Of a stretch of 64,000 bases of DNA, positions 7,562 through 55,659 are shown in pieces. The stretch comes from Gillisia sp. Hel_I_86. GTDB taxonomy: Bacteria > Bacteroidota > Bacteroidia > Flavobacteriales > Flavobacteriaceae. Each line of letters starts with the position of its first letter. Within the stretch, counting starts at the first letter, position 1. The stretch covers positions 2,294,001 to 2,358,000 of the forward strand of contig NZ_VISE01000001.1 of NCBI RefSeq assembly GCF_007827275.1, written 5' to 3'. The notes under the pieces are model-generated. The model did not search any database. It had not been told where the DNA came from and saw nothing but the letters and a program-made list of their open reading frames with translations. The position numbers and the translations under genes are program-made.

Positions 7562-7572
7562 TATAAAAAGCA

Positions 7573-9833: not shown

Positions 9834-9839
9834 AAGATC

Positions 9840-11049: not shown

Positions 11050-11055
11050 ATTTTA

Positions 11056-12027: not shown

Positions 12028-12484
12028 ACCATTCTATATTTGTTAAATTTTCACGTCTTCCTTTTTCCGTAACTGGATAATTAGTAACAAGATAATTCAC
12101 TATTATTTCTTGATTAGCACCTAAATCCCATAGGTTTTGAGTTTCCTGCATCCATTTAATAGTTTCATTCCACCGCTCTGCGCTCATTTTATTTTGTGTG
12201 ACCAATTTGGCCGAATGGCAATTGGTACAATTATTAACAACCGCCATTAAACCTACCCCATCAACCAGTCCTGTACGAACATGGATTCCATTTTCTATTA
12301 GGTTCTCGTCTATCTCTTCCGGAGTAACAACTAAAGCTTCTGTATTACTTTTAAAGGCCGAAAAATTCGGGTCGTTAATATAATATATTGTTGCCCCACC
12401 TGCTATTAAAAATATGCTGAAGGCTAAAATCATTAAATGATACACCTTCTTCGCGTATTTTTTAAATTCCTCTTCTTTAGTCAT
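12011..12484 (-). CDS. Membrane-anchored monohaem cytochrome c
   Basis: A 157-residue protein with one N-terminal membrane segment (about 17-36) and a single haem-attachment site CTNCH at 86-90; Met100 is a candidate axial ligand. It begins directly after the sulfite dehydrogenase stop, so the two are co-transcribed. In sulfite:cytochrome c oxidoreductases (SorAB, SoxCD) a small cytochrome accepts the electrons, and this is the likely role here. The sequence around the haem is short and not family-diagnostic beyond cytochrome c. Confidence 0.85.
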   Translation of the reverse strand: MTKEEEFKKYAKKVYHLMILAFSIFLIAGGATIYYINDPNFSAFKSNTEALVVTPEEIDENLIENGIHVRTGLVDGVGLMAVVNNCTNCHSAKLVTQNKMSAERWNETIKWMQETQNLWDLGANQEIIVNYLVTNYPVTEKGRRENLTNIEWYGLEN

Positions 12485-13705
12485 TTATGTTACTTTGATA
12501 GCAATTCTATGACAGGCATTGTTTAAATAACCTTTTGGATTCCAGCCGGGTAACAACATTGGTTGGGCTACACCTTGAGTGTCGGTTGCTTTTGCCCAAA
12601 CCTCATAGTAGCCTTTTTTAGGAAAATCTATGGATGCCGAGAAATGTTGCCAAGCCAAACGGTTTACTGGATCCTCTATTTGGCACTCTCTCCAGATTGC
12701 CCCAAAATCTATGGAATATTCCATTTTTGAAACCTCTAATTCTCCTGCCCAAGCGTGGCCTCTAATTTTTAAGGATGTGCCATCTTTTAAAACCGCACCA
12801 GATTTAGGATATGTGATCAATGATTTTACAGGCATAGATTCTATAATGCACATGTCTTCATCTTTAACCTTTTCTCCCGGTGCCACAGGTTCGCATGGCA
12901 CACGGTAGGCTGTCCCCATCATTTTAGTGCCATCGTGTATTTTGTTTCTAATGCTTATTCGATTAATCCATTTCCCCGAAACAGATGCTGGCCAACCACC
13001 TGCTACTAATCGTAATGGGTATCCGTGCGCAAGAGGGATTTCCTTTCCATTCATTTTGAACGCTAATAATGTTTCGTCTTGCAGGGATTTCACCATTGGA
13101 GCTCCTCTAGAAATTGGTTCTTTTTTTGGGTCTCTGCTTAAGTGTTCATCTACTGCATGATATCCTGTATAAACAGCATTATTTTTTATTCCTGCATCTT
13201 CTAAAACGTCACGTAGGCGTATACCGGTCCATGTTGCACAATGCACTGCACCAACTGTCCACTGGTTTCCTTTTGCTGGGGGATTAAATTCGCTTCGTCC
13301 ATTTCCGCCACATTCCAATGTTAATTGGTAGGTGTGATGCTCGAATTTTGATTTCAATTCTTCCAGCGTATATGTTTTTTGGTTCACTACAGATTCTCCA
13401 TCTATAGTAAGAGTCCATTTTTTTGCATCAATTGCTTCTGGAATTAGCCCATTATTTCTAATGAACATTGCAGAATTCGGTGTAATCTTATCGTCCAGTA
13501 AATGGGCTTGTGCTTCAATATTCCATGGCTTATCGTTAAGCACGAGCATTTCCTTGTTCTTATTAAACAATTTGAAGGGATCTGGATCTTGTAGCGCTAA
13601 TAGATTATAATCTTCTAATAAATTGGATCCATAAACGATTTCAGCACCAATGAGAGTGGCCAAAGTACTTAAGGTTGTTTTTTTTACGAAATCTCTTCTT
13701 TTCAA
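12485..13705 (-). CDS. Sulfite dehydrogenase / sulfite oxidase family molybdoenzyme (SorA/SoxC-like)
   Basis: A 406-residue molybdoenzyme. A twin-arginine signal (KRRDFVKK at 2-9 and a hydrophobic stretch to about 27) sends it folded to the periplasm. The Oxidored_molyb domain (about 75-260) has the molybdenum-ligand Cys132 in LECGGNGRSEF; the C-terminal Mo-co dimerisation domain spans about 275-405. The family oxidises sulfite to sulfate, or sulfane sulfur in SoxCD. It leads a leftward operon with a cytochrome c, a rhodanese lipoprotein and a hydroxylase-like protein. It needs the plain molybdopterin cofactor made by the nearby moa/moe genes. SorA or SoxC assignment is open. Confidence 0.92.
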   Translation of the reverse strand: MKRRDFVKKTTLSTLATLIGAEIVYGSNLLEDYNLLALQDPDPFKLFNKNKEMLVLNDKPWNIEAQAHLLDDKITPNSAMFIRNNGLIPEAIDAKKWTLTIDGESVVNQKTYTLEELKSKFEHHTYQLTLECGGNGRSEFNPPAKGNQWTVGAVHCATWTGIRLRDVLEDAGIKNNAVYTGYHAVDEHLSRDPKKEPISRGAPMVKSLQDETLLAFKMNGKEIPLAHGYPLRLVAGGWPASVSGKWINRISIRNKIHDGTKMMGTAYRVPCEPVAPGEKVKDEDMCIIESMPVKSLITYPKSGAVLKDGTSLKIRGHAWAGELEVSKMEYSIDFGAIWRECQIEDPVNRLAWQHFSASIDFPKKGYYEVWAKATDTQGVAQPMLLPGWNPKGYLNNACHRIAIKVT

Positions 13706-17613: not shown

Positions 17614-18565
17614 GGTTATGTTTTAGAATAATGTGGAAATTTATTATTTATACATCGATCAAATTTACGACAAATGGATTTACGCAATATTTTAAACGAT
17701 CTGGATCGAGCCGAGAAGATCGAGCTGGCGCAGCTTCTCCATCGGGGGCTCAACGTCCCCGACCTAGGGCTTGTGGGCAGGGACATCGGCAACGACCGCC
17801 CGGTGTATTGCCCTCACTGCGAAGACTCGGACATATACGGTCACGGGCACTACAAGGGGCGCAGGCGCTACAAGTGCAGGTCTTGCCACAAGACCTTCAA
17901 CGACTTTACCGGTACTGCCGTTGACGGCATAAAGAAGCTGGAAAAGTTCCAAGAATACCTGTTGTTGGTGGTGGAGAGCGACGACAAGCAGTTAGACATC
18001 AACGACAAGGGGCGGCGGAACCTTGGAAGGGATCCTACAAGAGGCCCAGCGACAGGGAAGCCAAAAGGGGCGTGAGCAACGACAAGGTCTCGGTGGTGGT
18101 CGCCTCGGGCAGGAACGGCGGGAGGACCATGCTTGTGGCAAAGATCGGCAGGATAGATGCGGAAAGCGTCCAGAACACGATAGGTGGGCTCATCGCACCG
18201 GGCAACGTACTGTGTTCCGATTCCCATCCCTCGATAATCAAATGGGCAAGGGACAACGAACTCGAGCACCATACCTTTGTGGCGTCGCGCCAACATGTAA
18301 AGGACAGGTGCTATCACGTACAGCACGTCAATTCCCGAGACAACCGCTATGAGAGATGGGTCAAGAAGTTTTATGGGGTTTCGACCAAGTACCTTCGGGG
18401 CTACTTGAACTGGTTTGTCTTTCTGGAAAAGATAAAGAAATCCGCCCTACAGGGCTTGGAACTTGCAAGGTGCGTCGCCAAGAACATCGGTGCAATAAAA
18501 ATCTATAGCTCTATCGAAAGGAAGTATGAGAAATTGATAGTTCCACAACTTTCTAAAAGATAACC
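17614..18565 (+). mobile_element. IS1595-family (ISXO2-like) insertion sequence
   Basis: A 952-bp element bounded by terminal inverted repeats at 17614-17638 and 18541-18565 that match at 21 of 25 positions, each beginning GGTTAT. It is clearly GC-richer than its surroundings. The left end is one base from the start codon of the SoxB-like gene; the right end interrupts an integrase gene. The eight flanking bases do not match (ATTTCATA versus ATTTTTGT), so there is no clean target duplication. That points to a later deletion or recombination next to the IS rather than simple insertion. Confidence 0.85.
17674..18563 (+). pseudogene. IS1595-family transposase, frameshifted
   Basis: The first frame (17674-18075) has the zinc ribbon CPHC...CRSC (residues 49-75) and runs to DDKQLDINDKG, a likely catalytic aspartate. 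The match then moves to another frame in which 18072-18563 carries VSNDKVSVVV, CSDSHPS (second aspartate) and HVQHVNSRDN, the third catalytic region of the ISXO2 type. The two frames total about 296 residues, and the shift falls near 18010-18030. I see no clear helix-turn-helix between zinc ribbon and catalytic domain, so part of it may also be deleted. The element is probably immobile by itself. Confidence 0.8.
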
Positions 18566-27828: not shown

Positions 27829-28851
27829 TTATGCTTTTAATGTAGAGGCTCGGATAATCAGATTTGTTTTAATTTCAATGGTCTTGGTCATTAAGACATT
27901 ATTTGGTGTATCGATTTCTTCAATTAAATATTGAACTGCAGTTTTCCCAATTCGGTTTCCAGGTTGCTCGATAGTGGTTAGTTGTGGCTCGATAATTACA
28001 GAATTTGCATTATTGCTAAATCCAACGACGGCGATTTCTTCAGGAATATTAACGTTAAATTTTTTTAAAACCTTAATGCAACCAATAGCTGCTGTATCCG
28101 TAATGGCAAAAATGGCATCTGGGCGTTCTTTCAAACTTAAAAGAATATTGGTCATTCTTTTACCCTCGTCTAAATCAATATCCTCACAGTTCAGAATAAT
28201 TTTTTCATCGATTGGAATGTTGTGTTCCTTTAGGGCTTTTAAATATCCAGCATATCGCTTTTCTGAATTATATGAAAACTCAAATTCCTTAATAATAGCA
28301 ATTCGCTTCTTACCTATGTTGATTAAATGCTCAACCGCATCAAATGCAGCCTCTTCATCATTAATAACGACTTGAGTACAGGGAATTTTGCTAGAAACCT
28401 TATCAAATAAAATAAGAGGAATTCTGTTTAATGTCCTTAAAACATTGTCAATATCTCGAGTTAGTTTGGAAAGGGAAAGCAAAATGCCATCCACTCCAAA
28501 TTGAATCATGGTATTAAGCATCTCAGCCTGTCTTTCAATATCATTATTGGATTCTGAAATGATAACCCTATAACCTCGCGCCGCAGCTTCTTCAAGAATC
28601 CCTGTAATGATGGTTGTGGTATAATGATGTGTGACATTTGATACCACAACTCCTATGATATTAGAGCGATGTTGTCGAAATCCTTTGGCAAAAAGGTTCG
28701 GCACATAATTCATTTCTTTTGCCAAGGTTTTTACTTTTTCCTTGGTCTGGTCACTTATCCCTTGATGGTCATTTAATGCTCTAGAAACTGTTGAAATTGA
28801 AATGTTTAGAGATTCAGCTATTTTTTTTAGGGTGGTGACATCCTTTTTCAT
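27829..28851 (-). CDS. LacI-family transcriptional regulator
   Basis: A 340-residue repressor. The N-terminal helix-turn-helix contains IAESLNISISTVSRALN (about 11-27) and the hinge helix follows (NYVPNLFAKG). The periplasmic-binding-protein-like core spans about 60-335, with the family motif VVGFSNN near 275. It is divergent from the TonB-receptor operon, and the 130-bp gap between them holds a CGCAAACG palindrome typical of LacI operators. It most likely responds to the sugar or a phosphorylated product of that operon. Confidence 0.93.
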   Translation of the reverse strand: MKKDVTTLKKIAESLNISISTVSRALNDHQGISDQTKEKVKTLAKEMNYVPNLFAKGFRQHRSNIIGVVVSNVTHHYTTTIITGILEEAAARGYRVIISESNNDIERQAEMLNTMIQFGVDGILLSLSKLTRDIDNVLRTLNRIPLILFDKVSSKIPCTQVVINDEEAAFDAVEHLINIGKKRIAIIKEFEFSYNSEKRYAGYLKALKEHNIPIDEKIILNCEDIDLDEGKRMTNILLSLKERPDAIFAITDTAAIGCIKVLKKFNVNIPEEIAVVGFSNNANSVIIEPQLTTIEQPGNRIGKTAVQYLIEEIDTPNNVLMTKTIEIKTNLIIRASTLKA

Positions 28852-28886
28852 AATAACGAAATATTAAATTAAAATGCAAACGTTAC

Positions 28887-28900
28887 CGCAAACGTTTGCG
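28887..28900. promoter_or_regulatory. LacI-type operator palindrome
   Basis: CGCAAACGTTTGCG is a perfect 14-bp palindrome with the central CG usual for LacI-family sites. A further half-site (GCAAACGTTA at 28876-28885) lies just left of it. Both sit between the divergent regulator and TonB-receptor genes. Confidence 0.8.
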
Positions 28901-28981
28901 TACAAATATCCTAAATTTTAGGCAAATTAATTGCGAACTTATTATTTATTTCGGCAAATAAATTAACTAATCCTTAATAAT

Positions 28982-31576
28982 ATGAAAACAATTTTTTTAA
29001 TGCTTATTGGTATTTGTAGCATTTCTACAACGTTTGCGCAGACCGAAATTACTGGTACCGTTAAAGACAATGCAGGCGTACCTGTGGTGGGCGCCAATAT
29101 CTTTATTAAAGGGAGCACCTCGGGAACCAATTCAGATTTTGATGGAATCTTCAGTTTTACAACAGAGCTTGAAGGAGAACAAACCCTCCAGGTATCTTAT
29201 TTAGGATATGAAACACTTAATCAAAAAATTAATTTGGATGGTACAAAACTTGTCTTAAAGATTGTTTTAAAGGAAGGGGGCAATGCTTTGGATGAAGTGG
29301 TTTTAACTGCCACATCAACCACACGTTCTCAAAAGGAAACACCGATGTCCATCACTTCTTTTGGATCCAAAGAATTATCCAAAACCAACATTAGCAGTCA
29401 AGCCGATGTGCTTCGTAGTGTTCCGGGTATTACTGCTGAAGGAGGAGGTGGTGAGGTAGCGTCCAACATTTTTGTAAGAGGTTTGCCTTCAGGTGGTCAA
29501 TATCAATTTAATCCATTGCAAATTGATGGGATGCCTGTATTGGCAACTTTTGGTTTGAACTCTTCTGCACATGACGTTTATTTTAGGAATGACATTGGGA
29601 TAAAAAGTTTGGAGTTTGTTCGCGGAGGATCTTCCATTTTATATGGAGTGGGTTCTGTTGCTGGTATTATAAACTATACGAGCATCACGGGAAATCCAAA
29701 TCCTAGACATATTCTTAGGACCGAAGTGGCCTCAGATTCTAGATATAAAGCCGACTTCTTAACCAGTGGTCCATTGGGAGGTAAAGATTCCCAAACTTTT
29801 TATGCACTATCTGGATTTTACAGATATGATCAAGGGCCTTTAAAAACTGGCTTGGACACTGAAGGATTTCAATTAAGAGGGAACATTAAGCATTTAACCG
29901 AAAAAGGATCTATAACTGTTTCAGGACAATGGATAGATGACAAAGTACAGTTTTTCCTGCCTTTCCCATTAGAAGGTGGTTCGCGTAATCGTCCAACCGG
30001 AAATGATGGAAATGAGATTTTTACTTTGCAAACTGCAGCGGCTTCGGATATTTCATATGCAACACCAGATGGAACTTATCAATCTCCAATAGAAGATGGT
30101 GTATTAACGAAAGGTGGCTATTTTTTAACCAATTTTAATCATCGTTTTTCAGATGATTTAAAACTGGATGCAAAATTAAGATACTCAAGATACGAGCACC
30201 AATTTAACTTGTTTTTAGATGGTAGTGGTGTCAGTGGAGCCAAGGTTGTAGAAACACAAGCAGAATATTTAGCTGCTAGAGAGTTGACCTCCGGTGATTT
30301 TACACTACTAAATGGCCAACCCCTTCCTGCAAATGCTTTGTTATTTGAAAACAGAATTTTAGATAGAGATAGACCATTGACAGAATTAATGGCAGATTTT
30401 AAATTGACCAAAACAACTGGTCAGCACAATATTACTTTTGGGTCATTCATTTCTAGATCAAAAGCTGGTGATTTTAATGTGATAACCAATTATTTAGGAG
30501 AATTCAATGATAGCCCAGAATTGGTAAATCTATCGGGGTACACAGTAAATGGTGTAACCAATAGAGGTACATCTTACACCAATAGAAATATAAACAGTAA
30601 TAAAATAGCCTTTTTTGTTGCTGATGAGATTAAGCTAGAGCGCTGGAATTTAGATTTTGGTATTCGTTACGAAAGAGCTTCGGGGGATATAGAAAATGAA
30701 GGTACTGCATCTTACAATGTTGACAATACAGGAATTGCTAATTTAGATAATGTAAATTGGGGCAATGGTTCTTGGACAAGAGGTCATGTATCGGCAGATG
30801 ATTTTGCCTTGGCTATTGCTGGGCTCTATAAAGTGAATGATAACTTAAGTGCCTATGCAAACTTTTCTAGAGGTTACTTTTTCCCTGAATTAAGAGGTAC
30901 AAAATTCGACGATTTAGGAAATCCAAATTCGTATGATACAGAAAAAATACTTCAAGGTGAGTTAGGTGTTAAGTACGGAGCTGGAAAATTCTCTGGTACT
31001 GCTGCTCTTTATTCCGTTAGTCTAAAAGATCGTAAATCCATAAGTTTTGTTAACGATGGTTCAGGTGGAACTACGGAAGAAGTTGATACACAGGATACAA
31101 AAACTTTTGGTATAGAAACCACGTGGAAATACAAATTCACGAACGAATTTAATTTCAATGGGACTTTTACGTTCCAAGATCATGAGATTTCTAAATCCGA
31201 AGCTAATCCAGAATATGAAGGCAACGAGTTAAGAAGACAGCCTAATGTTGTAGCCGCTTTAGGATTGGATTATGACAACACAAAGTTGGATGGAAGTTTT
31301 GTATATAACTATACAGGTGAGAAATTTTCTAATGATGCTAATTCTATTGAGCTAGATGCTATCGGATTAGCAAATTTAAATCTAGGGTATACCTTCAATG
31401 TTGGCGAAGCCGATGAAACTATTCGTTTGGGTGCTCAAGTATTTAATTTATTTAATGATAATGGTGTTACCGAAGGGTCTCCGAGACTTAACAATAGCCA
31501 AACAGAAGAAGAGTATTTTGTCGGGAGACCGGTGCTACCTACAAGAGTGTTCTTAAATGCAACCTTTAATTTTTAA
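28982..31576 (+). CDS. TonB-dependent receptor with carboxypeptidase-regulatory-like N-domain
   Basis: An 864-residue outer-membrane receptor. A signal peptide (1-20) is followed by a CarboxypepD_reg-like domain (ITGTVKDNAGVPVVGANIF, about 23-105), a plug (about 115-225) and a 22-strand barrel ending in FLNATFNF. No SusD gene follows, so it belongs to the stand-alone type rather than SusC/SusD pairs. It is first in an operon with a glycosylglycerate-hydrolase-like enzyme and a symporter and is probably controlled by the LacI regulator. The ligand is presumably the same glycoside or a larger precursor. Confidence 0.92.
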   Translation: MKTIFLMLIGICSISTTFAQTEITGTVKDNAGVPVVGANIFIKGSTSGTNSDFDGIFSFTTELEGEQTLQVSYLGYETLNQKINLDGTKLVLKIVLKEGGNALDEVVLTATSTTRSQKETPMSITSFGSKELSKTNISSQADVLRSVPGITAEGGGGEVASNIFVRGLPSGGQYQFNPLQIDGMPVLATFGLNSSAHDVYFRNDIGIKSLEFVRGGSSILYGVGSVAGIINYTSITGNPNPRHILRTEVASDSRYKADFLTSGPLGGKDSQTFYALSGFYRYDQGPLKTGLDTEGFQLRGNIKHLTEKGSITVSGQWIDDKVQFFLPFPLEGGSRNRPTGNDGNEIFTLQTAAASDISYATPDGTYQSPIEDGVLTKGGYFLTNFNHRFSDDLKLDAKLRYSRYEHQFNLFLDGSGVSGAKVVETQAEYLAARELTSGDFTLLNGQPLPANALLFENRILDRDRPLTELMADFKLTKTTGQHNITFGSFISRSKAGDFNVITNYLGEFNDSPELVNLSGYTVNGVTNRGTSYTNRNINSNKIAFFVADEIKLERWNLDFGIRYERASGDIENEGTASYNVDNTGIANLDNVNWGNGSWTRGHVSADDFALAIAGLYKVNDNLSAYANFSRGYFFPELRGTKFDDLGNPNSYDTEKILQGELGVKYGAGKFSGTAALYSVSLKDRKSISFVNDGSGGTTEEVDTQDTKTFGIETTWKYKFTNEFNFNGTFTFQDHEISKSEANPEYEGNELRRQPNVVAALGLDYDNTKLDGSFVYNYTGEKFSNDANSIELDAIGLANLNLGYTFNVGEADETIRLGAQVFNLFNDNGVTEGSPRLNNSQTEEEYFVGRPVLPTRVFLNATFNF

Positions 31577-31601
31577 GTGTTTTTATATTTGATTAGCAAC
31601 T

Positions 31602-31639
31602 AAACTCATCACAAACAACTAATCGTAAGTGGTGAGTTT
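31602..31639 (+). terminator. Hairpin between receptor and hydrolase genes, probable leaky terminator
   Basis: Arms 31602-31612 and 31629-31639 pair over 11 bases with one wobble and a 16-base loop. A short T-rich stretch follows. It lies inside the presumed operon, so it could lower expression of enzyme genes relative to the receptor or stabilise the receptor mRNA end. Confidence 0.5.
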
Positions 31640-31656
31640 CTTTAAAACTTTAATTG

Positions 31657-32964
31657 ATGAAAGAATTACAAAATAAAGCAATAAGCGTTCTCAACAAAAA
31701 CTGGAAAGACGCCTTCAGTGTTCCATGTGCCAATTTATATCCATTTCAATGGTTTTGGGATTCAGGGTTTATAGCCATCGGTTTTGCACATTTTGATATG
31801 CCCAAGGCCGAAAAGGAAATAGAAACATTATTGGACTCTCAATGGGACAATGGATTTATTCCACACATTATATTTCATACTGAAACCGATTCTTATTTCC
31901 CAGGACCTGATTTTCATCGGTCGGATTTGAGCCCACAGTCTTCAAAAAAGTACAAATCGACAGGCATGACACAACCTCCTGTTACAGGTTTCGTTTTTCA
32001 GGATATGTATCGTATAAGCACCGATAAAAAAGCAACTCTAAAGTTTATAGAAAGTGTTATTGATAAGGTGTATTTTAATCATCACTACTTTTACAACAAT
32101 AGAGACCCTAAAAATGAAGGACTCGTTTATATTTACCATAACTGGGAATCAGGGACCGATAATTCACCCATTTGGGATGATATTTGGGCGACCATGGACC
32201 CACCAGAATACAATTTTATAAGACGAGATACAACGCATGTGGATGCTGCACAACGACCATCAAAAAGAGAGTATGACCACTATCTGCACATTATCGACAT
32301 TGCAAAAGAACATCAGTATCGGGATGAAAAAATAGCGGAATTGTCACCATTTTTAGTTCAAGATCCACTTTTTAATACCATGTTGATAAAATCCAATCAA
32401 AGTTTGATTGATTTATATCAACTTATTGGAAATAATGAAGATAAAATCGCGCAACTTAAAAAGTGGCAGGAAAAGGCTATTAAAAGCTTTAACGAAAAAT
32501 TATTTGATAAGGAATTAGGCGTTTATATCCACTACGATTTAAGAAACGACAAAGCCTTGCGATATATTTCATCATCCTCATTTTCACCCTTGTTTGCCAA
32601 CATTCCCAGTAAAGAACAAGCGGCAGCCTTGGTAAAGGTCATGATGGAAAAATTTGGAAACGACAATCAATATCTATGTGCCTCTTTTGACCCGACAAAC
32701 GAACGTTTCAATCCAAAAAAATATTGGCGTGGTCCTGTTTGGGTGAACCTTAATTGGGTGCTTTATTATGGTTTAAAAAATTATGGATACGCTGATATTG
32801 CACAACGTGTTAAAAAGGACACCATTGAAATAATCGAAAAAGCAGGTTTTTACGAGTATTTTGATTCTCGAAAAGTGGAGTACAAAAACGGCAATACAGG
32901 TTATGGTGGCAACGATTTTTCATGGAGTGCGGCATTATTGATTGACATGTTGCAAGACAACTAA
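31657..32964 (+). CDS. GH63-type glycosidase, putative mannosyl/glucosylglycerate hydrolase
   Basis: About 435 residues, an (alpha/alpha)6-barrel glycosidase. The start at ATG 31657 is preferred to a TTG one codon earlier. Seen motifs are PFQWFWDSGF (24-33), WESGTDNSPIWDD near 166, which should hold a catalytic aspartate, YWRGPVWVNLNW near 350 and GYGGNDFSWSAAL near the end. No signal peptide, so it acts in the cytoplasm. Length and motifs match the compact GH63 enzymes that split mannosylglycerate or glucosylglycerate rather than large processing glucosidases. The downstream symporter, glycerate kinase and mannose-6-phosphate isomerase support this. Trehalase-like activity is the main alternative. 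Confidence 0.75.
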   Translation: MKELQNKAISVLNKNWKDAFSVPCANLYPFQWFWDSGFIAIGFAHFDMPKAEKEIETLLDSQWDNGFIPHIIFHTETDSYFPGPDFHRSDLSPQSSKKYKSTGMTQPPVTGFVFQDMYRISTDKKATLKFIESVIDKVYFNHHYFYNNRDPKNEGLVYIYHNWESGTDNSPIWDDIWATMDPPEYNFIRRDTTHVDAAQRPSKREYDHYLHIIDIAKEHQYRDEKIAELSPFLVQDPLFNTMLIKSNQSLIDLYQLIGNNEDKIAQLKKWQEKAIKSFNEKLFDKELGVYIHYDLRNDKALRYISSSSFSPLFANIPSKEQAAALVKVMMEKFGNDNQYLCASFDPTNERFNPKKYWRGPVWVNLNWVLYYGLKNYGYADIAQRVKKDTIEIIEKAGFYEYFDSRKVEYKNGNTGYGGNDFSWSAALLIDMLQDN

Positions 32965-32979
32965 TAAAATTTAAAAATC

Positions 32980-34626
32980 ATGAATTGGCTGGACTATAGT
33001 ATAGTGATCCTTTACATTGGGTTCTTTTTGGGAATGGGCTTTTTCTTTAAAGATAATAAAGATTCCAAAGATTACTTTTTAGGTGGAAAAAGCATGAGCT
33101 GGTTTCCGTTAAGCCTTTCCACTATGGCTACCCAATTATCGGCCATCAGTTTCATTTCTGCACCAGCTTTTGTTGGGCTTAAAATTGGAGGTGGTATGAA
33201 ATGGCTCACTTTTGAGTTTGCTGTTCCATTAGCCATGATTTTTATCATGATTGTCATTATTCCGCCCTTGTTCAAGTCGGGCGTTGTGAGTATCTATGAG
33301 TTTGTGGAAAAACGCTTTCACGCTTCAACGCGTTTGGTTTTAAGTGTGGTGTTCCAAATAAGTCGTGCGCTGGCAACAGGCGTTATGGTATATGCAGTAG
33401 CCATCATTTTACAAGCCGTTTTAGATATCGACTTTGTGTATACCATTTTAATTATTTCTGTTATTACCATTGTATATTCTTGGCAAGGTGGCATGAAAGC
33501 TGTTGTTTACGGCGATGCCATTCAAATGATTGTTCTTTTCGCAGGTCTGATTATTAGTTTGTATTACGGATGGAATTTGTTGCAAGAACACGGTGGGTTG
33601 CCACAAGGCTTTGACCCGGAACGTTTACAGGTTATAGACTATAATTTAGGGATTGGTGAAGGCAACGAATATGGTATATTACCCATGCTGTTGGGGGGGT
33701 TATTTTTGTATGCATCTTATTATGGCTGCGATCAAACCCAAGCACAACGCATGTTATCTGCTAAAAACGAAAAAACCATACGTCAATTATTATTGGCAAA
33801 CGGATTGCTTCGTTTCCCTGTGGTATTGATTTACTCTACCATGGGGTTGGTTATTGGTGGTCTGGTTTCCATTGCACCAGACTTTTTAAATGAAATTGCT
33901 CTGACCACGCAAAAATATTTTCCTGAGGAGTTTGCTAAAACAGGCATGAAAGTAGATTTGATGCTTCCAGTTTTCATCATAAAATATTTACCTCACGGGC
34001 TAATTGGTATTTTAATGGTTGGTATTCTTTCTGCAGCCATGTCTTCTTTAAGTTCAACAGTAAATTCACTGTCTGCTGTAACCGTTGAAGACATTTTCAA
34101 TAGAGGAAAAGTAAAGTTGAGCAACAAGAAATACATGTTTATTTCAAAAGGTTCCGTAGTGTTTTGGGGCGTAGTTTGTATAGCGAGTGCTTTTTTGTTT
34201 GGTGGAAGTAAAAGTGCGGTCATCGAAATCATCAACGCAGTGAGCTCGGTGTTTTATGGTCCTGTTTTAGTGACATTTGTCCTTGCCTTTTTCTCAAAAA
34301 AAGTCAACCATATTGGTATGAACGCGGGCATAATTTCAGCAGTTGTAATTAATCTTATTCTGTCCAAAACCATGCAACAGATATTCAATGTCGATTTGGG
34401 AATTCACATTTTTTGGATATGGCTTAATGTTACAGGTGTAGTGATTTCTTTGGTTGTGGCTTATGTGGTAAGTGCATTCAACCAAAATGTTGAGGTTAAA
34501 AAGATTTCTAACTTTAATGTTGCCATTAAGAAAGAAGATTTCATGATAAAAGAGGTGTATGTTTTGGCGGCATTCTTTATAGCTATTTTAATTTTTAGTT
34601 ATTTCATACCAACTATTTATGGTTAA
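32980..34626 (+). CDS. Sodium:solute symporter (SSS family)
   Basis: A 548-residue inner-membrane transporter with about 14 helices. It opens with LDYSIVILYIGFFLGMGFFF and has the family's ATQLSAISFISAPAFVG near 48 and VVYGDAIQM near 175 with the sodium-site surroundings. SSS members import sugars, carboxylates and amino acids. The gene starts 15 bases after the hydrolase and overlaps the following frame, so it is part of one operon; the likely cargo is an intact glycoside such as mannosylglycerate, since the hydrolase is cytoplasmic. Confidence 0.92.
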   Translation: MNWLDYSIVILYIGFFLGMGFFFKDNKDSKDYFLGGKSMSWFPLSLSTMATQLSAISFISAPAFVGLKIGGGMKWLTFEFAVPLAMIFIMIVIIPPLFKSGVVSIYEFVEKRFHASTRLVLSVVFQISRALATGVMVYAVAIILQAVLDIDFVYTILIISVITIVYSWQGGMKAVVYGDAIQMIVLFAGLIISLYYGWNLLQEHGGLPQGFDPERLQVIDYNLGIGEGNEYGILPMLLGGLFLYASYYGCDQTQAQRMLSAKNEKTIRQLLLANGLLRFPVVLIYSTMGLVIGGLVSIAPDFLNEIALTTQKYFPEEFAKTGMKVDLMLPVFIIKYLPHGLIGILMVGILSAAMSSLSSTVNSLSAVTVEDIFNRGKVKLSNKKYMFISKGSVVFWGVVCIASAFLFGGSKSAVIEIINAVSSVFYGPVLVTFVLAFFSKKVNHIGMNAGIISAVVINLILSKTMQQIFNVDLGIHIFWIWLNVTGVVISLVVAYVVSAFNQNVEVKKISNFNVAIKKEDFMIKEVYVLAAFFIAILIFSYFIPTIYG

Positions 34627-34645
34627 ATCATTTAATTCATCAAAA

Positions 34646-35770
34646 ATGAAAATTATTCTTGCACCTGATAAATTCAAAGGGTCTTTAACTGGACTACAGT
34701 TTTGTGCAGCAGTTGAAGAAGGTATCAGGGAAGTATTGCCAAATACTGAAATCATCAAGATGCCTTTGGCTGATGGTGGCGATGGAACTATTGATGTTTT
34801 GGAGTATCATTTAAAAGGAAAAAGAGTTAAGGTAAAAGTGAACGACCCCCTCTTTAGACAAATTGAAGCAACCTACCTTTATATGGAATCCATAAAAACC
34901 GCTTTTATTGAAATGGCGGAAGCTTCAGGGATGTATCTGTTAAAAAAAGAAGAACAAAATTGTTTCAATACCACCACTTTAGGCACTGGTGAACTTATTT
35001 TGGACGCCATCAACAAAGGTGCTAAAACCATTATTTTAGGCATTGGAGGGAGTGCTACAAACGATTGTGGGATGGGCATGGCTGTTGCTTTGGGGTATAA
35101 ATTTGAAGACAAGAATGGTAAGGAACTTAAACCTATTGGGGAGAATCTGTCGCAAATAAAAATGATTAATAAGCATAAGGTCATGGATATTTTAAAATCT
35201 ATTGATTTTAAAGTTGCCTGTGATGTAACCAATCCACTATATGGAGAAAATGGTGCTGCCTTTGTTTATGGCCCACAAAAAGGAGCAACAGCAGATGAAA
35301 TTAAAGCTTTGGATAAAGGACTTAAAAACATGTCCAAACTTTTTAAAAGACAATTTTTGATGGATGTCCAAAAGACAAATGGTGCAGGTGCGGCCGGCGG
35401 CATGGGAGCTGGTACTTTGGTGTTTTTAAATGCTGAACTGAAATCTGGAATTGATTTAGTGAAGGATTTGGTGGATTTTGATTCTAAAATAAAAGGAGCT
35501 AATTGGATGATCACAGGCGAAGGGAAATTGGATTCGCAAACACTTTCGGGAAAAACCATTAGCGGCGTTTTATCTTCCTCAAAAAGACAAAATATCCCTG
35601 TGGCTGCATTATGTGGAACTATTTCACTTTCAAAAGAAGAGTCTGAAAAATTTGGGATTTCATATACCGATGCAGTTATGGAATCGACAAATTCTTTGGA
35701 AGATGCCATGGAAAATGGTTATCGATATATCAAACACATGGCATCCAAATTTGCAAGGGAAATTGTTTAA
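34646..35770 (+). CDS. Glycerate kinase (GckA/GlxK family)
   Basis: About 374 residues. The start at ATG 34646 begins with KIILAPDKFKGSLTG, the family's standard opening; an in-frame start at 34619 would overlap the symporter. Other signatures are ADGGDGT near 45, GIGGSATNDCGMGMA near 135 and GEGKLDSQTLSGK near 295. The enzyme phosphorylates D-glycerate, usually to 2-phosphoglycerate in this family, feeding lower glycolysis. Its presence right behind a glycosidase and transporter is the strongest hint that the imported glycoside has a glycerate aglycone. Confidence 0.94.
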   Translation: MKIILAPDKFKGSLTGLQFCAAVEEGIREVLPNTEIIKMPLADGGDGTIDVLEYHLKGKRVKVKVNDPLFRQIEATYLYMESIKTAFIEMAEASGMYLLKKEEQNCFNTTTLGTGELILDAINKGAKTIILGIGGSATNDCGMGMAVALGYKFEDKNGKELKPIGENLSQIKMINKHKVMDILKSIDFKVACDVTNPLYGENGAAFVYGPQKGATADEIKALDKGLKNMSKLFKRQFLMDVQKTNGAGAAGGMGAGTLVFLNAELKSGIDLVKDLVDFDSKIKGANWMITGEGKLDSQTLSGKTISGVLSSSKRQNIPVAALCGTISLSKEESEKFGISYTDAVMESTNSLEDAMENGYRYIKHMASKFAREIV

Positions 35771-35798
35771 CTATTTTTTCATCATTAATAACCTATAA

Positions 35799-36770
35799 AT
35801 GAAACTATATCCATTAAAGTTCATACCTATTTTTTGCTATCGTATTTGGGGTGGCAATAAACTGAAAAATATATTAAATAAAGAGTATCACGAAGACTCT
35901 ATTGGTGAATCTTGGGAGATTTCGGATGTGGATGACTTTAATACAGTTGTTAAAGCTGGACCTTTAAAGGGACAAACCATTAAGGATGTCATCACAACGT
36001 TTAAATCTGACGTATTAGGGATACATGTTTATGAAAAATTCGGGGATGAATTTCCTTTGTTAATCAAATTTATTGATGCCAAAACGCCATTATCAATTCA
36101 GGTGCATCCAAGTGACGCCCTTGCTAAAGAACGACATAATTCCTTTGGTAAAAATGAAATGTGGTACATTATGGAAGCTGATGACGATGCGAAATTGATA
36201 GTTGGGTTTAATAAAAAAGTCAGTAAAGAAACCTATCTCGAAAAATTAAAAAAAGGTAATCTTATAGAGGTTTTAAACACCAAAACAGTTAAAAAAGGCG
36301 ACACCTATTACATTCCCACTGGCAGAGTTCATGCTATTGGCGCAGGTGTTCTTTTGGCTGAAATCCAACAAACATCCAACATTACTTACCGTATTTATGA
36401 CTATGATAGAGTGGATGCTAAAACAGGAGAAAAACGGGAACTTCATAATGAATTGGCCATAGATGCCATTGATTTTAAGTATTATCAAGAGTATAAAACA
36501 GATTACAATACTATTGCAAACACTTCAAATACGTTAGTCCATTCGCCTTATTTTAAAACGAACATTCTTAAACTCACTAAAAACGTGAAAAAGGATTATA
36601 GTAAACTTGATTCTTTTGTTATTTACATGTGTGTTAGCGGTTTTATGGTTTTAGAAGTTGATAATGCAGAATATAAACTTAAGTATGGGGAAACACTATT
36701 GCTACCTTCGTGTTTAAACCATATCCATATAAAAACTGAAATGGCTACAGTTTTGGAGGTTTTTATGTAA
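35799..36770 (+). CDS. manA: Mannose-6-phosphate isomerase, class I
   Basis: A 323-residue cupin-type zinc enzyme of the short class I form. Zinc ligands are visible in SIQVHPSD near 98 and in the later GRVHAIGAG near 178; FGKNEMWYIMEA and AEIQQTSNITYRIYDYDR are family signatures. It converts mannose-6-phosphate to fructose-6-phosphate. It ends the operon begun by the TonB receptor and implies that mannose is released by the upstream hydrolase. No hexokinase or mannokinase is in this operon; it must be supplied elsewhere. Confidence 0.94.
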   Translation: MKLYPLKFIPIFCYRIWGGNKLKNILNKEYHEDSIGESWEISDVDDFNTVVKAGPLKGQTIKDVITTFKSDVLGIHVYEKFGDEFPLLIKFIDAKTPLSIQVHPSDALAKERHNSFGKNEMWYIMEADDDAKLIVGFNKKVSKETYLEKLKKGNLIEVLNTKTVKKGDTYYIPTGRVHAIGAGVLLAEIQQTSNITYRIYDYDRVDAKTGEKRELHNELAIDAIDFKYYQEYKTDYNTIANTSNTLVHSPYFKTNILKLTKNVKKDYSKLDSFVIYMCVSGFMVLEVDNAEYKLKYGETLLLPSCLNHIHIKTEMATVLEVFM

Positions 36771-36948: not shown

Positions 36949-38206
36949 ATGGACACAGAAAAAGAAATCAAATCCCTGATCTGGGATTGTGTAGCCTACC
37001 TCAGGGAGGAAGGCTACAGTGAGCCCCGGGTTAAAGATTACCATCGGTTGTGGAGTAATGGAATTGAGCAGTATATGGATAAAAAATTTTTGGCAAACTA
37101 CCATACTGGGATCGGTGAGAGTTTTTTAAGCACTATCCCTCCCGTCAATGAGCGACTCACATATGCGGGCAATCTGCCGTAGTGTACACGTACTGGATGA
37201 CTTTATTTTTTATGGAAAAGTCAGGAAAAGAAGTGTAAAATATGTATATCATGAGTTGCCCGGTAAACTAGGGGAAGTTGCCCTGGAGTTTATAGTATCC
37301 CAAGAAAAGCTCCGTCGCTGCAAACCTATCCTTAGTAAACACCGTCGTATTTTGAGTTACTTTATTGCCCATCTTATATTAAGGTCGATAGACCAAGTTT
37401 CGGCCATTGGTGAAGATGATGTTCTTACCTTCATATCATCAGTCCAGAATTGCAAGGACAGGTACCTAAATACTATCCGACTATTCTGCCGGTTCTTGTA
37501 TCAACAAAAATACATTGACAGAAATGTGGAATACGTCATCGGAAGAAACAACTATCCATTGCGTGAAAAACTGCCCTCAGTCTACAATGCCGATGAGATA
37601 AGGCATATCGAAAATAAGGTAGAGCAATCCAGTGCGGTGGGCAAACGTGACTATGCAATGCTCCTTCTGGCCACACGGCTTGACCTGCGCTCTTCGGACA
37701 TAGCGGGGCTGACCTTTGGTAATTTGGATTGGGGACACAATCTCATATCCCTGGTGCAGTGCAAGACAAAGAAAATAATAGGCCTCCCGCTTTTGACCGA
37801 TGTGGGCGAAGCCATTATCAACTACCTGAAATTTGGAAGGCCAATATCCGATTTTCAGCAAGTGTTCCTGACTGCCAGTGCCCCCTACCGTCCCGTGAAC
37901 AGTAAGCTCATCAGTAGAGCGGTAAGTAGAACAATAATAGCATCTGGGGTTGATATCAAAGGCCGTAAGTTCGGCCCACATGCCATGCGGCACACCCTGG
38001 CCAGTCAGCTATTACGCAACGGAACTTCGCTCCCGGTCATATCCGAAACACTCGGACACTCCGACACGCAGGCCACCATGAACTATTTACGCACAAATAT
38101 AAACAGTCTTGTGCAGTGTGCACTTGATGTCCCCCTGGTACCGATAAATTTTTATGAGCAGAAAGGAGGTGTTTTGTTTTTAATGGAAAAAGACTTCAGG
38201 AAATAG
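36949..38206 (+). pseudogene. Tyrosine recombinase, frameshifted near its N-terminus
   Basis: The first frame (36949-37182) encodes the N-terminal part with SLIWDCVAYLREEGYSEPR. The rest runs in the next frame from about 37148 (RAICRSVHVLDDF) to 38206. The catalytic domain is complete: LRSSDIAGL (first Arg), a lysine in CKTKKI, HAMRHTLAS (His-x2-Arg) and LGHSDTQATMNYL with the nucleophile tyrosine. One base lost or gained near 37140 separates the halves. Codon use is GC-richer than in the flanking operons, indicating transfer. It could also be a sequencing error or a programmed frameshift. Confidence 0.8.
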
Positions 38207-44890: not shown

Positions 44891-45761
44891 AAACGATTCA
44901 CAAGAATCATTCGATTCTATTGAGGATAATCTGACAATTCTGCCACAATACCCAATATTCCTGACTTTCCGGTGTTTTTTCATAATCCTTGTCCAGTCGC
45001 CTGAAGAAATTGAAGATCCCGAAGGTCCTTTCGGTGACCCATCTCCACTTTACCGGGACAAAGCCTTTCGAGGATGGCGGGCATGACGAGATCTCCACTT
45101 CCAGCCCTATTACCGTCCTCTCGACCCACTCCATGAACACCTTCTTGTAGGCATGGTCGGCCAGTATCTTTTCCATCCGGTCCAGATAGCCCAACAGGGG
45201 CTCCACCACCCTCTCGGCCACCGCCCCGTCGGCCTGGTTCGCCGCGCCTACCACAACGCCCCATACCAGGCCGAGGGTATCGGTGATCGCGTGCCGTTTC
45301 CGTCCGTTTATCTTCTTGTTCCCGTCGATGCCCTTCGACTCGGAGGTCATCGGCCCCGCCTTGACGGACTGGCTGTCGATCGACAGCATACTGGGCGTTG
45401 CCCCCTTTCCCTGCCGCTTCCTCTCCATCATGTTCAGCCCTGCGTTCAGCCTTGAAAGGGTGCCGTCCCGGCCCCACTTCCTGAAATGGTAGTAGACGCT
45501 CTCCCATTTGGGAAAGCATTCCGGTAGGTTCCGCCATTGGCAGCCGGTGCGCAATATCCAAAGGATGGCGTCGGCAATGTCGCGCAACTTATAGTGGCCC
45601 TTGATTTTAACGGGAAGGAATTTTTTCATAATTTCCCACTGTTGGGCAGTCGATCGGGTGTATCTCGATTTCATAAACTCTGTTTTATTTGTGAACTACA
45701 AAGTTTATACTGCCCAACTTTTTTTACAAACTTTCACCCAAATTTGTTTTTAAACATGCTC
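44879..45761. mobile_element. IS5-family (IS1031-like) insertion sequence
   Basis: An 883-bp element with perfect 16-bp terminal repeats: GAGCATGTTTAAAAAC at 44879-44894 and its reverse complement at 45746-45761. It is flanked by the direct repeat TTA (44876-44878 and 45762-45764), a 3-base target duplication as expected for this group. Perfect ends, an intact transposase and a clean duplication mean a recent insertion. It lies in the 3' end of the ferric-reductase-like gene. Confidence 0.95.
44907..45674 (-). CDS. IS5-family transposase
   Basis: A 255-residue intact transposase. The N-terminal DUF4096-like part contains ILRTGCQWRNLPECFP. The DDE residues are Asp100 (SIDSQSV), Asp173 (ADHAYKK) and Glu215 (WVTERTFGIFNFFRRL, the family's C-terminal signature). 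GC-rich codon use contrasts sharply with its neighbours. A long overlapping frame on the same strand (44980-45561) is a by-product of the GC content. Nothing suggests a programmed frameshift; one frame covers the whole protein. Confidence 0.94.
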   Translation of the reverse strand: MKSRYTRSTAQQWEIMKKFLPVKIKGHYKLRDIADAILWILRTGCQWRNLPECFPKWESVYYHFRKWGRDGTLSRLNAGLNMMERKRQGKGATPSMLSIDSQSVKAGPMTSESKGIDGNKKINGRKRHAITDTLGLVWGVVVGAANQADGAVAERVVEPLLGYLDRMEKILADHAYKKVFMEWVERTVIGLEVEISSCPPSSKGFVPVKWRWVTERTFGIFNFFRRLDKDYEKTPESQEYWVLWQNCQIILNRIE

Positions 45762-50407: not shown

Positions 50408-52336
50408 ATGCGAAAAATGGCACGATTAAACCTTTTGGAAGAAACCCGATTTGAAAAAATACCCGTTTCTGTTTATGCGAATAAGCACATTGCATCCAAA
50501 ATGGTTGCCAAGAGAATTTCTGAGGTTATTTTAAAACAAGAGGCAAAAGGTTTTAACACTGTTCTCGGACTTGCAACAGGTTTAACGCCAATAGGGGTTT
50601 ACGAGGAACTTATAAGACTTCATAAAGAAGAGGGCCTAAGTTTCAGGAATGTCATAACTTTTAATTTGGATGAATATTACCCTATGAATCCTTCATCCAG
50701 ACAGAGTTATGTATATTTTATGAATGAAGTTCTTTTTGACCATATTGATATAGCCAAAGAAAATATTAATATCCCAGATGGGACTTTAGATAAGGAGAAG
50801 GTTATAGAATTTTGTGCAGCGTATGAAAATAAAATTGAAAGCCTTGGAGGTTTTGACCTTCAAATTTTAGGAATTGGAAGAACAGGGCACATTGGTTTTA
50901 ATGAACCTGGTTCAGCTCCAAATTCAGGTACAAGATTGGTAACATTAGATGATTTAACTCGGCAAGATGCATCTCGAGACTTTGGAGGAAAAGTAAATGT
51001 TCCCACAAAAGCAATAACGATGGGTATTGGCACAATCTTTAAGGCAAGAGAAATCATTTTAATGGCCTGGAACACTAAAAAGGCAGCTATTGTAAAGAAA
51101 GCTGTTGAAGGAGAAATTTCAGGGGAAGTCCCTGCTTCATATTTACAGCTTGCGGAAAACATTGAATTTGTTATTGATAGAGATGCGGCTTCTGAGCTAA
51201 CACGCTTTGACACCCCTTGGCTGGTAAAAGACTGTAACTGGAACGAATTCCTTATTAAAAAAGCCATCATTTGGTTATCTCATATCGTTAATAAACCTAT
51301 TTTAAAATTAACAGATGAAGATTACAATAATCACGGAATGGCTCAGTTGGCCACAGAATATGGTCCTACCTACAATATAAATATTAAGATTTTTAACGAC
51401 CTTCAACACACCATTACTGGATGGCCGGGAGGAAAGCCAAATGCAGCAGATTCCCAACGACCCGAACGTGCCGAACCATCGATTAAAACTTCTTTGATTT
51501 TTTCTCCCCACCCCGATGACGATGTGGTTTCCATGGGAGGAACCTTTATTCGTCTGGTAGAGCAAGGACATAATGTACATGTAGCTTATCAAACATCTGG
51601 TAACACCAGTGTATGGGACACAGATGTTTTAAGGTATGTAGAATTCGCGATCGATTTTTATGAAAGTATGGGATTAAATCCTGTAAAATTCGAAAAAATT
51701 TATTGTGAAATGAGTGCTTTCCTTAATAACAAACAGCCCAATGAAACAGATCCATTGGAGGTGCAAAAAGTAAAAGCTTTTATAAGAAAATCAGAAGCAA
51801 TTGCCGCTGCTCGATATGCAGGATTACCAGATGATCAAATTCATTTTATGGATCTTCCCTTTTATGATCTAGGCAAGAAAATGAAAAACCCTGTTTCCAA
51901 CAATGATATTGATGAAACAATTCAGTTGCTCCAAAAATTGAAACCACATCAGATATTTGCAGCCGGAGATTTTGCTGATCCCCATGGAACGCATTTAGTT
52001 TGTTTTCAGATTATTATTAAAGCAATGGAGAAACTTCGAGAAACTGAGGACTGGGCAAAATTAGCTTGGTTATGGATGTACAGGGGTGCGTGGCAAGAAT
52101 TTCAAACATATGAAATAGAAATGGCTGTTCCCCTCTCTCCTCAGGAAGTTGAACGTAAAAAAAATGCAATTTTTCAACATCAATCCCAAAAGGACCGTCC
52201 TGTTTTTCCGGGAGATGATGAGAGAGAATTTTGGGTAAGGGCTCAGGAAAGGAACAACAAAACTGCTCAAAATTATCACAAATTGGGATTGGCCAATTAT
52301 GAAGCTATGGAAGCCTTTGTAAGGTGGAAATTTTAA
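50408..52336 (+). CDS. nagB: Glucosamine-6-phosphate deaminase fused to a PIG-L-like domain
   Basis: A 642-residue protein. Residues 1-270 are NagB-like: LATGLTPIGVYEEL near 55, NLDEYYP near 84 and GRTGHIGFNEPGS near 158 with the active-site histidine. From about 360 a PIG-L (LmbE-like) domain has SPHPDDD near 367 and a later DPHGTHL that complete a zinc site. It has no signal peptide. This two-domain form is common in Bacteroidota. NagB turns glucosamine-6-phosphate into fructose-6-phosphate and ammonia; the second domain may deacetylate the N-acetyl sugar phosphate, though that is inference. A second start (ATG 50417) is possible. Confidence 0.9.
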   Translation: MRKMARLNLLEETRFEKIPVSVYANKHIASKMVAKRISEVILKQEAKGFNTVLGLATGLTPIGVYEELIRLHKEEGLSFRNVITFNLDEYYPMNPSSRQSYVYFMNEVLFDHIDIAKENINIPDGTLDKEKVIEFCAAYENKIESLGGFDLQILGIGRTGHIGFNEPGSAPNSGTRLVTLDDLTRQDASRDFGGKVNVPTKAITMGIGTIFKAREIILMAWNTKKAAIVKKAVEGEISGEVPASYLQLAENIEFVIDRDAASELTRFDTPWLVKDCNWNEFLIKKAIIWLSHIVNKPILKLTDEDYNNHGMAQLATEYGPTYNINIKIFNDLQHTITGWPGGKPNAADSQRPERAEPSIKTSLIFSPHPDDDVVSMGGTFIRLVEQGHNVHVAYQTSGNTSVWDTDVLRYVEFAIDFYESMGLNPVKFEKIYCEMSAFLNNKQPNETDPLEVQKVKAFIRKSEAIAAARYAGLPDDQIHFMDLPFYDLGKKMKNPVSNNDIDETIQLLQKLKPHQIFAAGDFADPHGTHLVCFQIIIKAMEKLRETEDWAKLAWLWMYRGAWQEFQTYEIEMAVPLSPQEVERKKNAIFQHQSQKDRPVFPGDDEREFWVRAQERNNKTAQNYHKLGLANYEAMEAFVRWKF

Positions 52337-52358
52337 CTTTTAACTAAATAATTCATTT

Positions 52359-55300
52359 ATGAAAAATTTTTATTTAATGATCAAGAATAAGGTGGTTCAC
52401 AAATCCAAAACTGCCATTTGTAGTTTGTCAATTTTATTATCAGTCATTCCTTTTTCGTTAGCGGCCAATGATTTGAAGGGTGTCGAGAAAAGTATTATGA
52501 CAGATTTTCCGATTTCTGAACAAAAACAAATTTCAGGAACTGTGACTGATATTGACGGTATGCCATTAGGTGGAGCCACCGTTCAGGTTAAAGGAACAAA
52601 TATAGGGGCGATAACTAATTTTGATGGAGATTTTGAATTGACAATACCAGGCAATGAGAATATTTTAGTTGTTTCCTTTGTTGGGTTTGAGACTAAAGAA
52701 GTAACTGTGGATAGTGAAACTAATATCATTATAGCTTTACAGGCAGATGCAGCTGCATTGGATGAAGTAGTGGTGGTGGGTTATGGAACCCTTTCAAAAA
52801 GGAGGGTTACTGGCTCTGTAGCTTCCATAAGCCCAGAACAAATAGTGGATATTCCCGTGGTAAGTGTGGAAAATGCTATCATAGGACAGGTTGCTGGAGT
52901 ACAAGTACAGCAAGTTTCCGGAGAACCTGGTTCAAGTCCTAATATAAAGGTGAGGGGTTCGGGGTCTATTTCCGCTGGTAGCGATCCTCTTTTTGTAGTA
53001 GATGGAATACCAATTTCTAAAAATCTTACCTCCGTAAATATTCAAGGGGACTTAGCAAGAAGAGGTGGCTCTTTTCAAGCTCCTCCAGTTAATCCGTTAG
53101 CTACAATTAATCCCAACGATATTATATCCATGGAAATTTTGAAAGATGCTTCGTCAACAGCTATTTATGGATCAAGAGGAGGGAATGGTGTTGTTTTGAT
53201 AACTACAAAAAACGGAACACCATCTAAGGAGGGGGTTTTTTCTTTTAATACTTATTATAGTTCACAAGAAGTTGCGAATAAAATCGAGTTGATGAACGCT
53301 GAAGAATTGATAGCATATACTCGTGATGCAAGGAACAATCCTTATGTGCAAGATGTTCCAGGAGCTTCTGTAGATGATCCGATAGGCCCTGGAGAGCGAG
53401 GTAATGGAAACTATGAACTTCCCGAATCTTTTTTGAATTGGGATGGAACGGATACAGACTGGCAGGATCTTATATTCAGAACTGGTTCAATACAAAGCTA
53501 TAATTTATCTTATGCTTCTCCAATAGAAAATAATACCAGTTATTATGTGTCTGGAGGTTATTTCACTCAGGAAGGAATTATCCCTGATTCTCAATTTGAG
53601 AGGTACAGTTTAATGCTAAACGTGGATTCTCAACTAACGGATAAATTAAATCTGGATTTAAGAATAGCTCCATCGATTACAGAAAATCAAAGGGAACCGG
53701 CTTCTGCCCCCTATTTTGCCAGACCTCCCGGAATTGTCTATTCAGCTTTAGTTCATTCCCCAACTGTTCGACCTTATAATGAAGATGGAACCATAAATCA
53801 AACCAATAACCAATCCCATCTTGGAGCCGGTACAACTACTGCGAGTAATCCTCTGGCAATTATTCCTGCAGTGGATGATAACCTGTTTCAATTTCAAACA
53901 AGAACTTCGCTAGGGCTTTCATACGAAATCATTCCAGACCTTACTTTTAAAACTTTCGGTGGTGCTTATATCAATATTTACAATAGGGATTTTTATCGCG
54001 GAAATACTCTGTTGTTCAGAGATGCAACAGAGGGAGAATCGTATGCACAGGCTTCTTCTTCCACAGAAATAAATTGGCTTTGGGAAAATACGGTTAATTG
54101 GATAAAAGAATATGATGATCATTTCATTAACGCAGTGGCAGGTTATTCAATGCAAAAAGATAATGTAACGGTTAAACAGGTTCAAGCAGATAATTTTCCA
54201 GATGATTTGGTAACTACATTAAGTGGAGGTCAAGTATTCGCGGGAAGTTCTGTTAAAGAACAATGGTCCTTGCTTTCTGCCCTTCTTAGAGTAAATTATA
54301 GCTATAAAGATAAATATCTCTTCACAGGAACTATTCGGTCAGATAAATCTTCTAGGTTTGGAAGTAACAATCAAACTGGATACTTTCCTTCGTTTTCAGC
54401 TGGTTGGAGAGTGAACGAGGAAGAATTTTTAAGTTCAGTCGATGCTTTGTCCGAATTAAAATTAAGGTTTAGCTGGGGTCAGACAGGTAACTTTGAAATT
54501 CCTAATTATGGGGCTATAGGTTTATTATCCCCATTAAACTACAATTTTAATGGAAATGAAGTTAACGGGCTACTACAATCTACTATTCCCAATCCAGATT
54601 TAACATGGGAGAAGGCCACCCAAACGAATTTCGGGATTGAATTAGGGCTCTTTAATAATAGATTGTTTCTATTGGCCGATTATTATGAGACAAAAAATAC
54701 AGACTTACTATTATTCGTAAGTATTCCTTCTGTTTCTGGATTTGAAACAACTCTTCAAAATATTGGAGAAGTTGAGAATAAAGGTTTTGAAGTTGCTTTA
54801 CGTACAAGGAACCTTGTAGGTGAATTTACATGGGAAACAAATTTCAACTTCTCTACAAACAAAAATGAAGTATTATCCTTAAATGATAATAATGAGCCTA
54901 TTTATTCAGCTGGTAGTGCAGGAATTAGACATATCACCCGTGTAGGCGATCCTATCGGAAGCTATTTTGGTTATGTGGTGGACGGTATTTATCAAAGCGA
55001 AGAAGATATTGCCAATTCTCCTGAAGATACAGAGGCACCGGATCCTGCCCCGGGGGATTTTAAATTTCTTGATGTTAACGGTGATGGAAAAATTACACCA
55101 GATGACAGAACAGTTACTGGTAGTTATTTTCCTGATTTTACTTGGGGAATAACAAACACTTTTACGTATAAAGGCATGGATTTTAGTTTTCTAGTTCAAG
55201 GAGTGGAAGGAAATGAAATATTAAATTTGACCTCCCGGCATTTAAAAAATGGAGAAGCTAATTTTAATTCCTATGCAATTTTCAATGAGCGATGGAGATC

Positions 55301-55646: not shown

Positions 55647-55659
55647 ATAAAAAATTAAG

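Follow-up and report, generated by a model that had tools for sequence, protein, structure and literature searches.

Described routes for glycosylglycerates and the Gillisia locus

Mannosylglycerate (MG) and glucosylglycerate (GG) serve red algae and marine cyanobacteria as salt-protecting osmolytes. As far as the literature that we searched goes, their consumers are little studied. Escherichia coli uses external MG by means of MngAB, in which a PTS imports the compound and a GH38 enzyme acts on the 6-phosphate. For flavobacteria, PMC8072126 reports that Maribacter dokdonensis 62-1 has homologues of the genes that Barbeyron et al. (2016; doi 10.1111/1462-2920.13584) described for digeneaside degradation in Zobellia galactanivorans, and PMC6298971 lists digeneaside among the predicted substrates of North Sea flavobacteria. 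As for the enzymes, PMC6608630 states that the MG hydrolase of Thermus thermophilus (TtMgH) and the characterised MgHs cleave MG and GG at similar efficiency, and that the GG hydrolase of Mycolicibacterium hassiacum (MhGgH) does not cleave glucosylglycerol.

Here, we describe a locus of Gillisia sp. Hel_I_86 that is probably a LacI-controlled operon for the catabolism of an external 2-O-glycosylglycerate, chiefly alpha-mannosylglycerate (digeneaside). It occupies positions 27829-36770 of the 64,000-nucleotide stretch of DNA that we analyzed (the window) and comprises six genes, all of which are intact ORFs. A gene for a LacI-family transcriptional regulator (27829..28851, minus strand; LacI/Peripla_BP domains) is divergent from five plus-strand genes. 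These encode a TonB-dependent outer-membrane receptor without a SusD partner (28982..31576; TonB plug and barrel with an N-terminal CarbopepD_reg_2 domain), a predicted GH63 MGH1-like glycosylglycerate hydrolase (31657..32964), an SSS sodium:solute symporter that we propose as the inner-membrane importer of the intact glycoside (32980..34626; SSF domain), a glycerate kinase of the GlxK/GarK family (34619..35770; Gly_kinase E 2e-138), and the class I mannose-6-phosphate isomerase ManA (35799..36770; PMI type I), which scored 147.8 bits against TIGR00218 (cut-off 116.2). The glycerate kinase is the sole PF02595 match and ManA the sole full-length class I ManA match in the genome. Based on ORFs and domain profiles, the six genes, families and order that the initial annotation had read at these positions were all recovered, and its description of the genes as tightly spaced holds, with 15 bp between the hydrolase and symporter genes, overlapping symporter and kinase ORFs, and 28 bp between the kinase gene and manA.

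For the hydrolase, the ATG at 31657 is better placed as the start than the TTG at 31654 in the ORF list, immediately before it; the glycerate kinase probably starts at the ATG at 34649, judging by the point at which its family match sets in. No signal peptide was seen in the hydrolase by eye. The short distances between the five plus-strand genes would allow a single transcript; a scan for promoters and terminators gave matches at chance level only and is uninformative on the transcript, and scans for Rfam families and tRNAs gave no matches. We rejected a SusCD-type PUL as a description of the locus because there is no SusD among its ORFs and the receptor scored 101 bits against the SusC/RagA cut-off of 368. 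Elsewhere in the window, positions 538-13705 hold a molybdenum-cofactor gene cluster followed by a gene for a sulfite-oxidase-like molybdoenzyme (12485-13705; Oxidored_molyb and Mo-co_dimer domains).

Conservation of the gene order and of a control site

In a whole-genome search, ten further members of the family had a close homologue of the hydrolase (E <1e-150), but the 15 congeners sampled had none; the locus is thus accessory in the genus. The order LacI-TonB receptor-GH63-SSS-glycerate kinase is kept around eight of the ten family homologues. For a wider comparison, we used a set of named loci, which represents the best 80 of 568 relatives and is hence biased toward near kin, and in which 64 loci have complete flanks. 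Among these 64, the symporter gene lies beside the GH63 gene in every case (64/64), GH63-SSS-glycerate kinase is kept in 62/64, the receptor gene precedes the GH63 gene in 51/64, and the divergent LacI gene as well as the full five-gene order are found in 50/64, while eleven loci, mostly more distant ones, consist of GH63-SSS-glycerate kinase alone. The genera with the locus include Gelidibacter, Mariniflexile, Algibacter, Olleya, Lacinutrix, Aquimarina, Winogradskyella, Maribacter, Zobellia, Cellulophaga, Arenibacter, Lutibacter, Tenacibaculum, and Kordia. Because the same order recurs in so many genera, it is not a product of chance. At 1e-60, a homologue is present in 19 of the 395 genomes of an even sample of the phylum, some of them non-flavobacterial.

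Several variations and neighbors were observed. Sister operons often have a gene for a GNAT acetyltransferase between the GH63 and SSS genes (e.g., L064:10332-10934 and L172:6352-6960), which is not present in the window, and in Allomuricauda ochracea a GntP-type permease gene (L118:11985-13310) occupies the usual position of the glycerate kinase gene. In the window, a tyrosine recombinase gene (37148-38206) lies directly downstream of the operon, and an IS4/5-type transposase gene (44907-45674) and an ISXO2-like transposase fragment (18072-18563) are found farther away. This recombinase and these transposases fit with the accessory character of the locus, which the sampled congeners lack.

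Between the LacI and receptor genes, we identified the perfect 14-bp palindrome CGCAAACGTTTGCG (28887-28900), which is kept in relatives. In 55 of 56 LacI-receptor intergenic regions the best 14-mer matched it at 11 or more of the 14 positions, and in 44 of the 56 at 13 or 14, counts in which related loci are not independent of one another; single-base shuffles of the same regions seldom exceeded 10/14. The operator-like site persists even though the length of the intergenic region differs between loci. The natural reading is that the palindrome is the probable LacI operator, and we infer repression by LacI that is relieved by an inducer. No second copy with zero or one mismatch was detected elsewhere in the genome, and with up to two mismatches a reversed control pattern outnumbered the true one; for these two reasons, we do not claim a wider regulon.

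The hydrolase, its sugar, and the origin of the substrate

The hydrolase matches PF22422 (MGH1-like_GH) over its full length (profile positions 1-356 of 356, E 4e-91, 306.7 bits). The best match in the PDB is TtMgH (2z07/4wva), with 315 bits and 1.2e-92 over residues 3-430, followed by mycobacterial GgH (216 bits), YgjK (44 bits), and trehalase (~29 bits); identity is 39% to TtMgH versus 30% to MhGgH. With numbering from the ATG at 31657 and residue roles taken from PMC6608630, the catalytic pair Asp168/Glu400 and the glycerate contacts Tyr28, Trp32, Tyr80, Trp163, Arg200, Tyr206, and Tyr356 are all present. These positions are also invariant across 76 homologues from the named loci, although for Tyr28 and Trp32, as for Gln106, which were part of the peptide patterns by which these homologues had been retrieved, invariance is partly by construction. 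The only mismatches with the residue list of PMC6608630 are at MhGgH Gln434 and at the tunnel residue Ser214. Position 421, the one sugar contact compared that sets MhGgH (Gln434) apart, is Phe in the window enzyme, in TtMgH, and in all 76 homologues. A second MGH1-like GH63 protein of the genome (423 aa; L054:9809-11080, genome ~1999809-2001080) is divergent, being 27% identical, and most of its glycerate contacts are changed, which argues that the conservation in the hydrolase is more than that of the fold.

The hydrolase scored 323 bits against the GG hydrolase equivalog NF047898, below the cut-off of 550, and domain profiles gave weak similarity to trehalase and GH63 domains. From the PDB scores together with the active-site residues, we rejected a reading of the hydrolase as a trehalase or an alpha-glucosidase, and by score the grouping with such enzymes that the initial annotation had named as evidence against its own reading was not found. 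In a GH63 tree with trehalase and alpha-glucosidase outgroups, the outgroup branches are very long and support is weak, and in a tree without outgroups TtMgH and MhGgH are likewise long-branched, such that we made no use of their order.

Because MgHs take MG and GG alike, the enzyme sequence alone cannot fix the sugar. Two kinds of additional gene bear on this point. In eight scattered loci, i.e., the window, L046, and six named loci in Lacinutrix, Algibacter, Olleya, Aquimarina (two), and Winogradskyella, a co-directional manA directly follows the glycerate kinase gene. On the GH63 tree, the presence of ManA requires seven changes, at least five of which are forced by well-supported branches; ManA has therefore joined or left the operon repeatedly. 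This repeated linkage favours mannose. Most sister loci lack ManA, and as the only full-length class I copy in the genome, the isomerase may also supply GDP-mannose synthesis. In two other loci, in Lutibacter sp. B1 (L103:11955-13649) and in a MAG (L121:11975-13669), a gene for a 564-aa GH13_18 protein, a putative GG phosphorylase, lies between the SSS and glycerate kinase genes. The two proteins share 43% and 41% full-length identity with E. coli YcjM, which is annotated as a GG phosphorylase, and both contain TETN and PYELN, in line with the diagnostic phosphorylase motifs (T/S)ETN and a loop A with Glu (PYELN) that are given in PMC7178133 and PMC10608839. A phosphorylase homologue (52%) is encoded elsewhere in the genome of one relative that itself carries the operon, while the window genome has no GG phosphorylase; ManA and the phosphorylase were never seen together in one locus. 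Judged from these sequences, the phosphorylase insertions provide independent support for glycosylglycerates as substrates of the operon family and for GG as one that some of its members would encounter. More distantly, a homologue (39%) from outside the flavobacteria but within the phylum lies beside genes for mannosyl-3-phosphoglycerate (MPG) synthase and the cognate phosphatase, which ties the wider hydrolase family to MG; this region (L165:4678-8399) is likely an MG synthesis and turnover cluster.

The alternative that the GG of marine picocyanobacteria rather than MG is the physiological substrate, with ManA adjoining for other reasons, draws on the acceptance of both MG and GG by MgH-type enzymes (PMC6608630), on GG being common in marine cyanobacteria as cited in PMC11631117, on the phosphorylase genes of the two sister loci, and on the lack of ManA in most sister loci. 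We nevertheless consider it unlikely, as a co-directional ManA recurs immediately downstream of the glycerate kinase in eight scattered loci, Phe421 agrees with TtMgH, and an added phosphorylase would be redundant if the GH63 enzyme were already a GG enzyme, while the window genome has none. Much less credible still is cleavage of some other small alpha-glycoside, such as glucosylglycerol or trehalose, with the glycerate kinase being incidental. The weak trehalase and GH63 domain similarity would be compatible with it, but the kinase stays with the hydrolase in nearly all complete loci, the invariant glycerate contacts are mostly lost in the MGH1-like paralogue, trehalases score only ~29 bits, and glucosylglycerol is not cleaved by MhGgH (PMC6608630).

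The origin of the substrate can be addressed from the biosynthetic side. A search limited to MPG synthase found none in the window genome and, in the other relatives covered, none that exceeded the cut-off of the family; without this enzyme, the substrate is probably external, i.e., the glycoside would come from outside the cell. That the locus scavenges or turns over a self-made compatible solute rather than food has a precedent in the Mycolicibacterium MgH/GgH enzymes, which recycle their own solute (PMC6608630), and could be read from the distant homologue beside the MPG synthase and phosphatase genes. We regard it as highly improbable given the negative result of this search limited to MPG synthase, and the TonB receptor, symporter, and catabolic-type LacI, which indicate uptake. 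Our preferred reading is that the locus handles 2-O-glycosylglycerates, of which MG is the likeliest in this strain and GG a likely second substrate. The initial annotation was right to leave mannosyl or glucosyl open, as ManA favours mannose but two sister loci contain a GG phosphorylase.

Proposed pathway and comparison with known systems

Starting from the gene content and order, the operator-like site, the conserved active site, and the absence of an MG-synthase gene, we infer the substrate, transport direction, repression, and kinase step of the following pathway. The anionic glycoside would cross the outer membrane via the TonB-dependent receptor, and be imported unchanged, together with Na+, by the SSS symporter. 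In the cytoplasm, the GH63 enzyme would then convert it by inverting hydrolysis to mannose and D-glycerate. Glycerate would enter lower glycolysis via the glycerate kinase, while mannose would be phosphorylated by an unlinked kinase and the mannose-6-phosphate isomerized to fructose-6-phosphate by ManA. LacI would repress at the palindrome until an inducer is present. The hydrolase scores, the glycerate-site residues, and the conserved order support in substance the interpretation of the operon as one for glycosylglycerate catabolism.

No hexose kinase or mannokinase is encoded within the locus. The genome has two ROK genes. One, outside the window (in L039), is a frame of 431 aa that extends past the ROK domain and looks like a regulator. 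The other (60186-61019) encodes a kinase-like protein of 277 aa, the only kinase-like ROK of the genome, and lies 24 kb away in a cluster of co-directional genes (50408-63687) that otherwise encode a NagB-like/PIG-L fusion, a SusC/SusD-like pair, two PIG-L deacetylases, an MFS transporter, and a large protein with PcRGLX-like domains; by its gene content, this cluster resembles a locus for the use of amino sugars or glycosides. There are five PfkB genes in the genome. A PF02685 glucokinase was not found in the genome in a search with a positive control, while a search for PF00349 hexokinases proves nothing because its controls gave no match either.

On a broader scale, we tentatively propose, at somewhat less than even confidence, a general marine glycosylglycerate locus whose core (LacI, TonB receptor without SusD, GH63, Na+ symporter, and glycerate kinase) is fixed and whose modules for the sugar end are exchangeable, with ManA where red-algal MG dominates and the phosphorylase where cyanobacterial GG is also used. 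If true, two algal/cyanobacterial osmolytes would have a dedicated route of their own in which a TonB receptor serves a molecule of <300 Da, and the operon makes the question of a stand-alone TonB receptor for so small a solute testable. The compact conserved locus and its operator motif would provide marker genes for MG/GG flux, and the ManA or GG phosphorylase add-on a testable rule for the sugar used by a strain.

The closest described counterparts are the digeneaside genes of Zobellia and Maribacter. The LacI-TonB receptor-GH63-SSS-glycerate kinase order is present in Zobellia (L084 and L086) and Maribacter (L076, L077, and others), and based on genus and gene order, the Zobellia locus found here would correspond to the digeneaside genes of 2016. 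The window locus has the proposed substrate, bacterial family, and gene order in common with them and adds ManA. With digeneaside genes reported for both genera and both carrying the locus, the window locus is of a known, predicted kind. The statement of the initial annotation that no described system had this layout is therefore only partly right: digeneaside genes had already been reported for Zobellia and Maribacter (PMC8072126), while in the open-licence literature we found no experimental study of a digeneaside operon and no description of the conserved operator, the ManA and GG phosphorylase add-ons, or the breadth of the family.

The other comparisons concern single functions. TtMgH shares the fold family and the catalytic and glycerate-contacting residues, whereas the window enzyme sits in an uptake operon with a TonB-dependent receptor, an SSS symporter, and a glycerate kinase. 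MhGgH (5ohc) shares the family and the catalytic pair but differs at the position of Phe421, and its role is endogenous GG recycling. YcjM of E. coli K-12 also acts on a glycosylglycerate and has its homologues within two sister loci, but it is a GH13_18 phosphorylase rather than a GH63 enzyme and is without a counterpart in the window genome. E. coli MngAB has external MG in common with the window locus, which contains neither the PTS nor the GH38 enzyme. What we add here is the conserved control site and the lineage-specific add-on enzymes, the substrate idea having already been published; we regard the reading of the locus as a sound prediction of function, not as the discovery of a system of a new kind.
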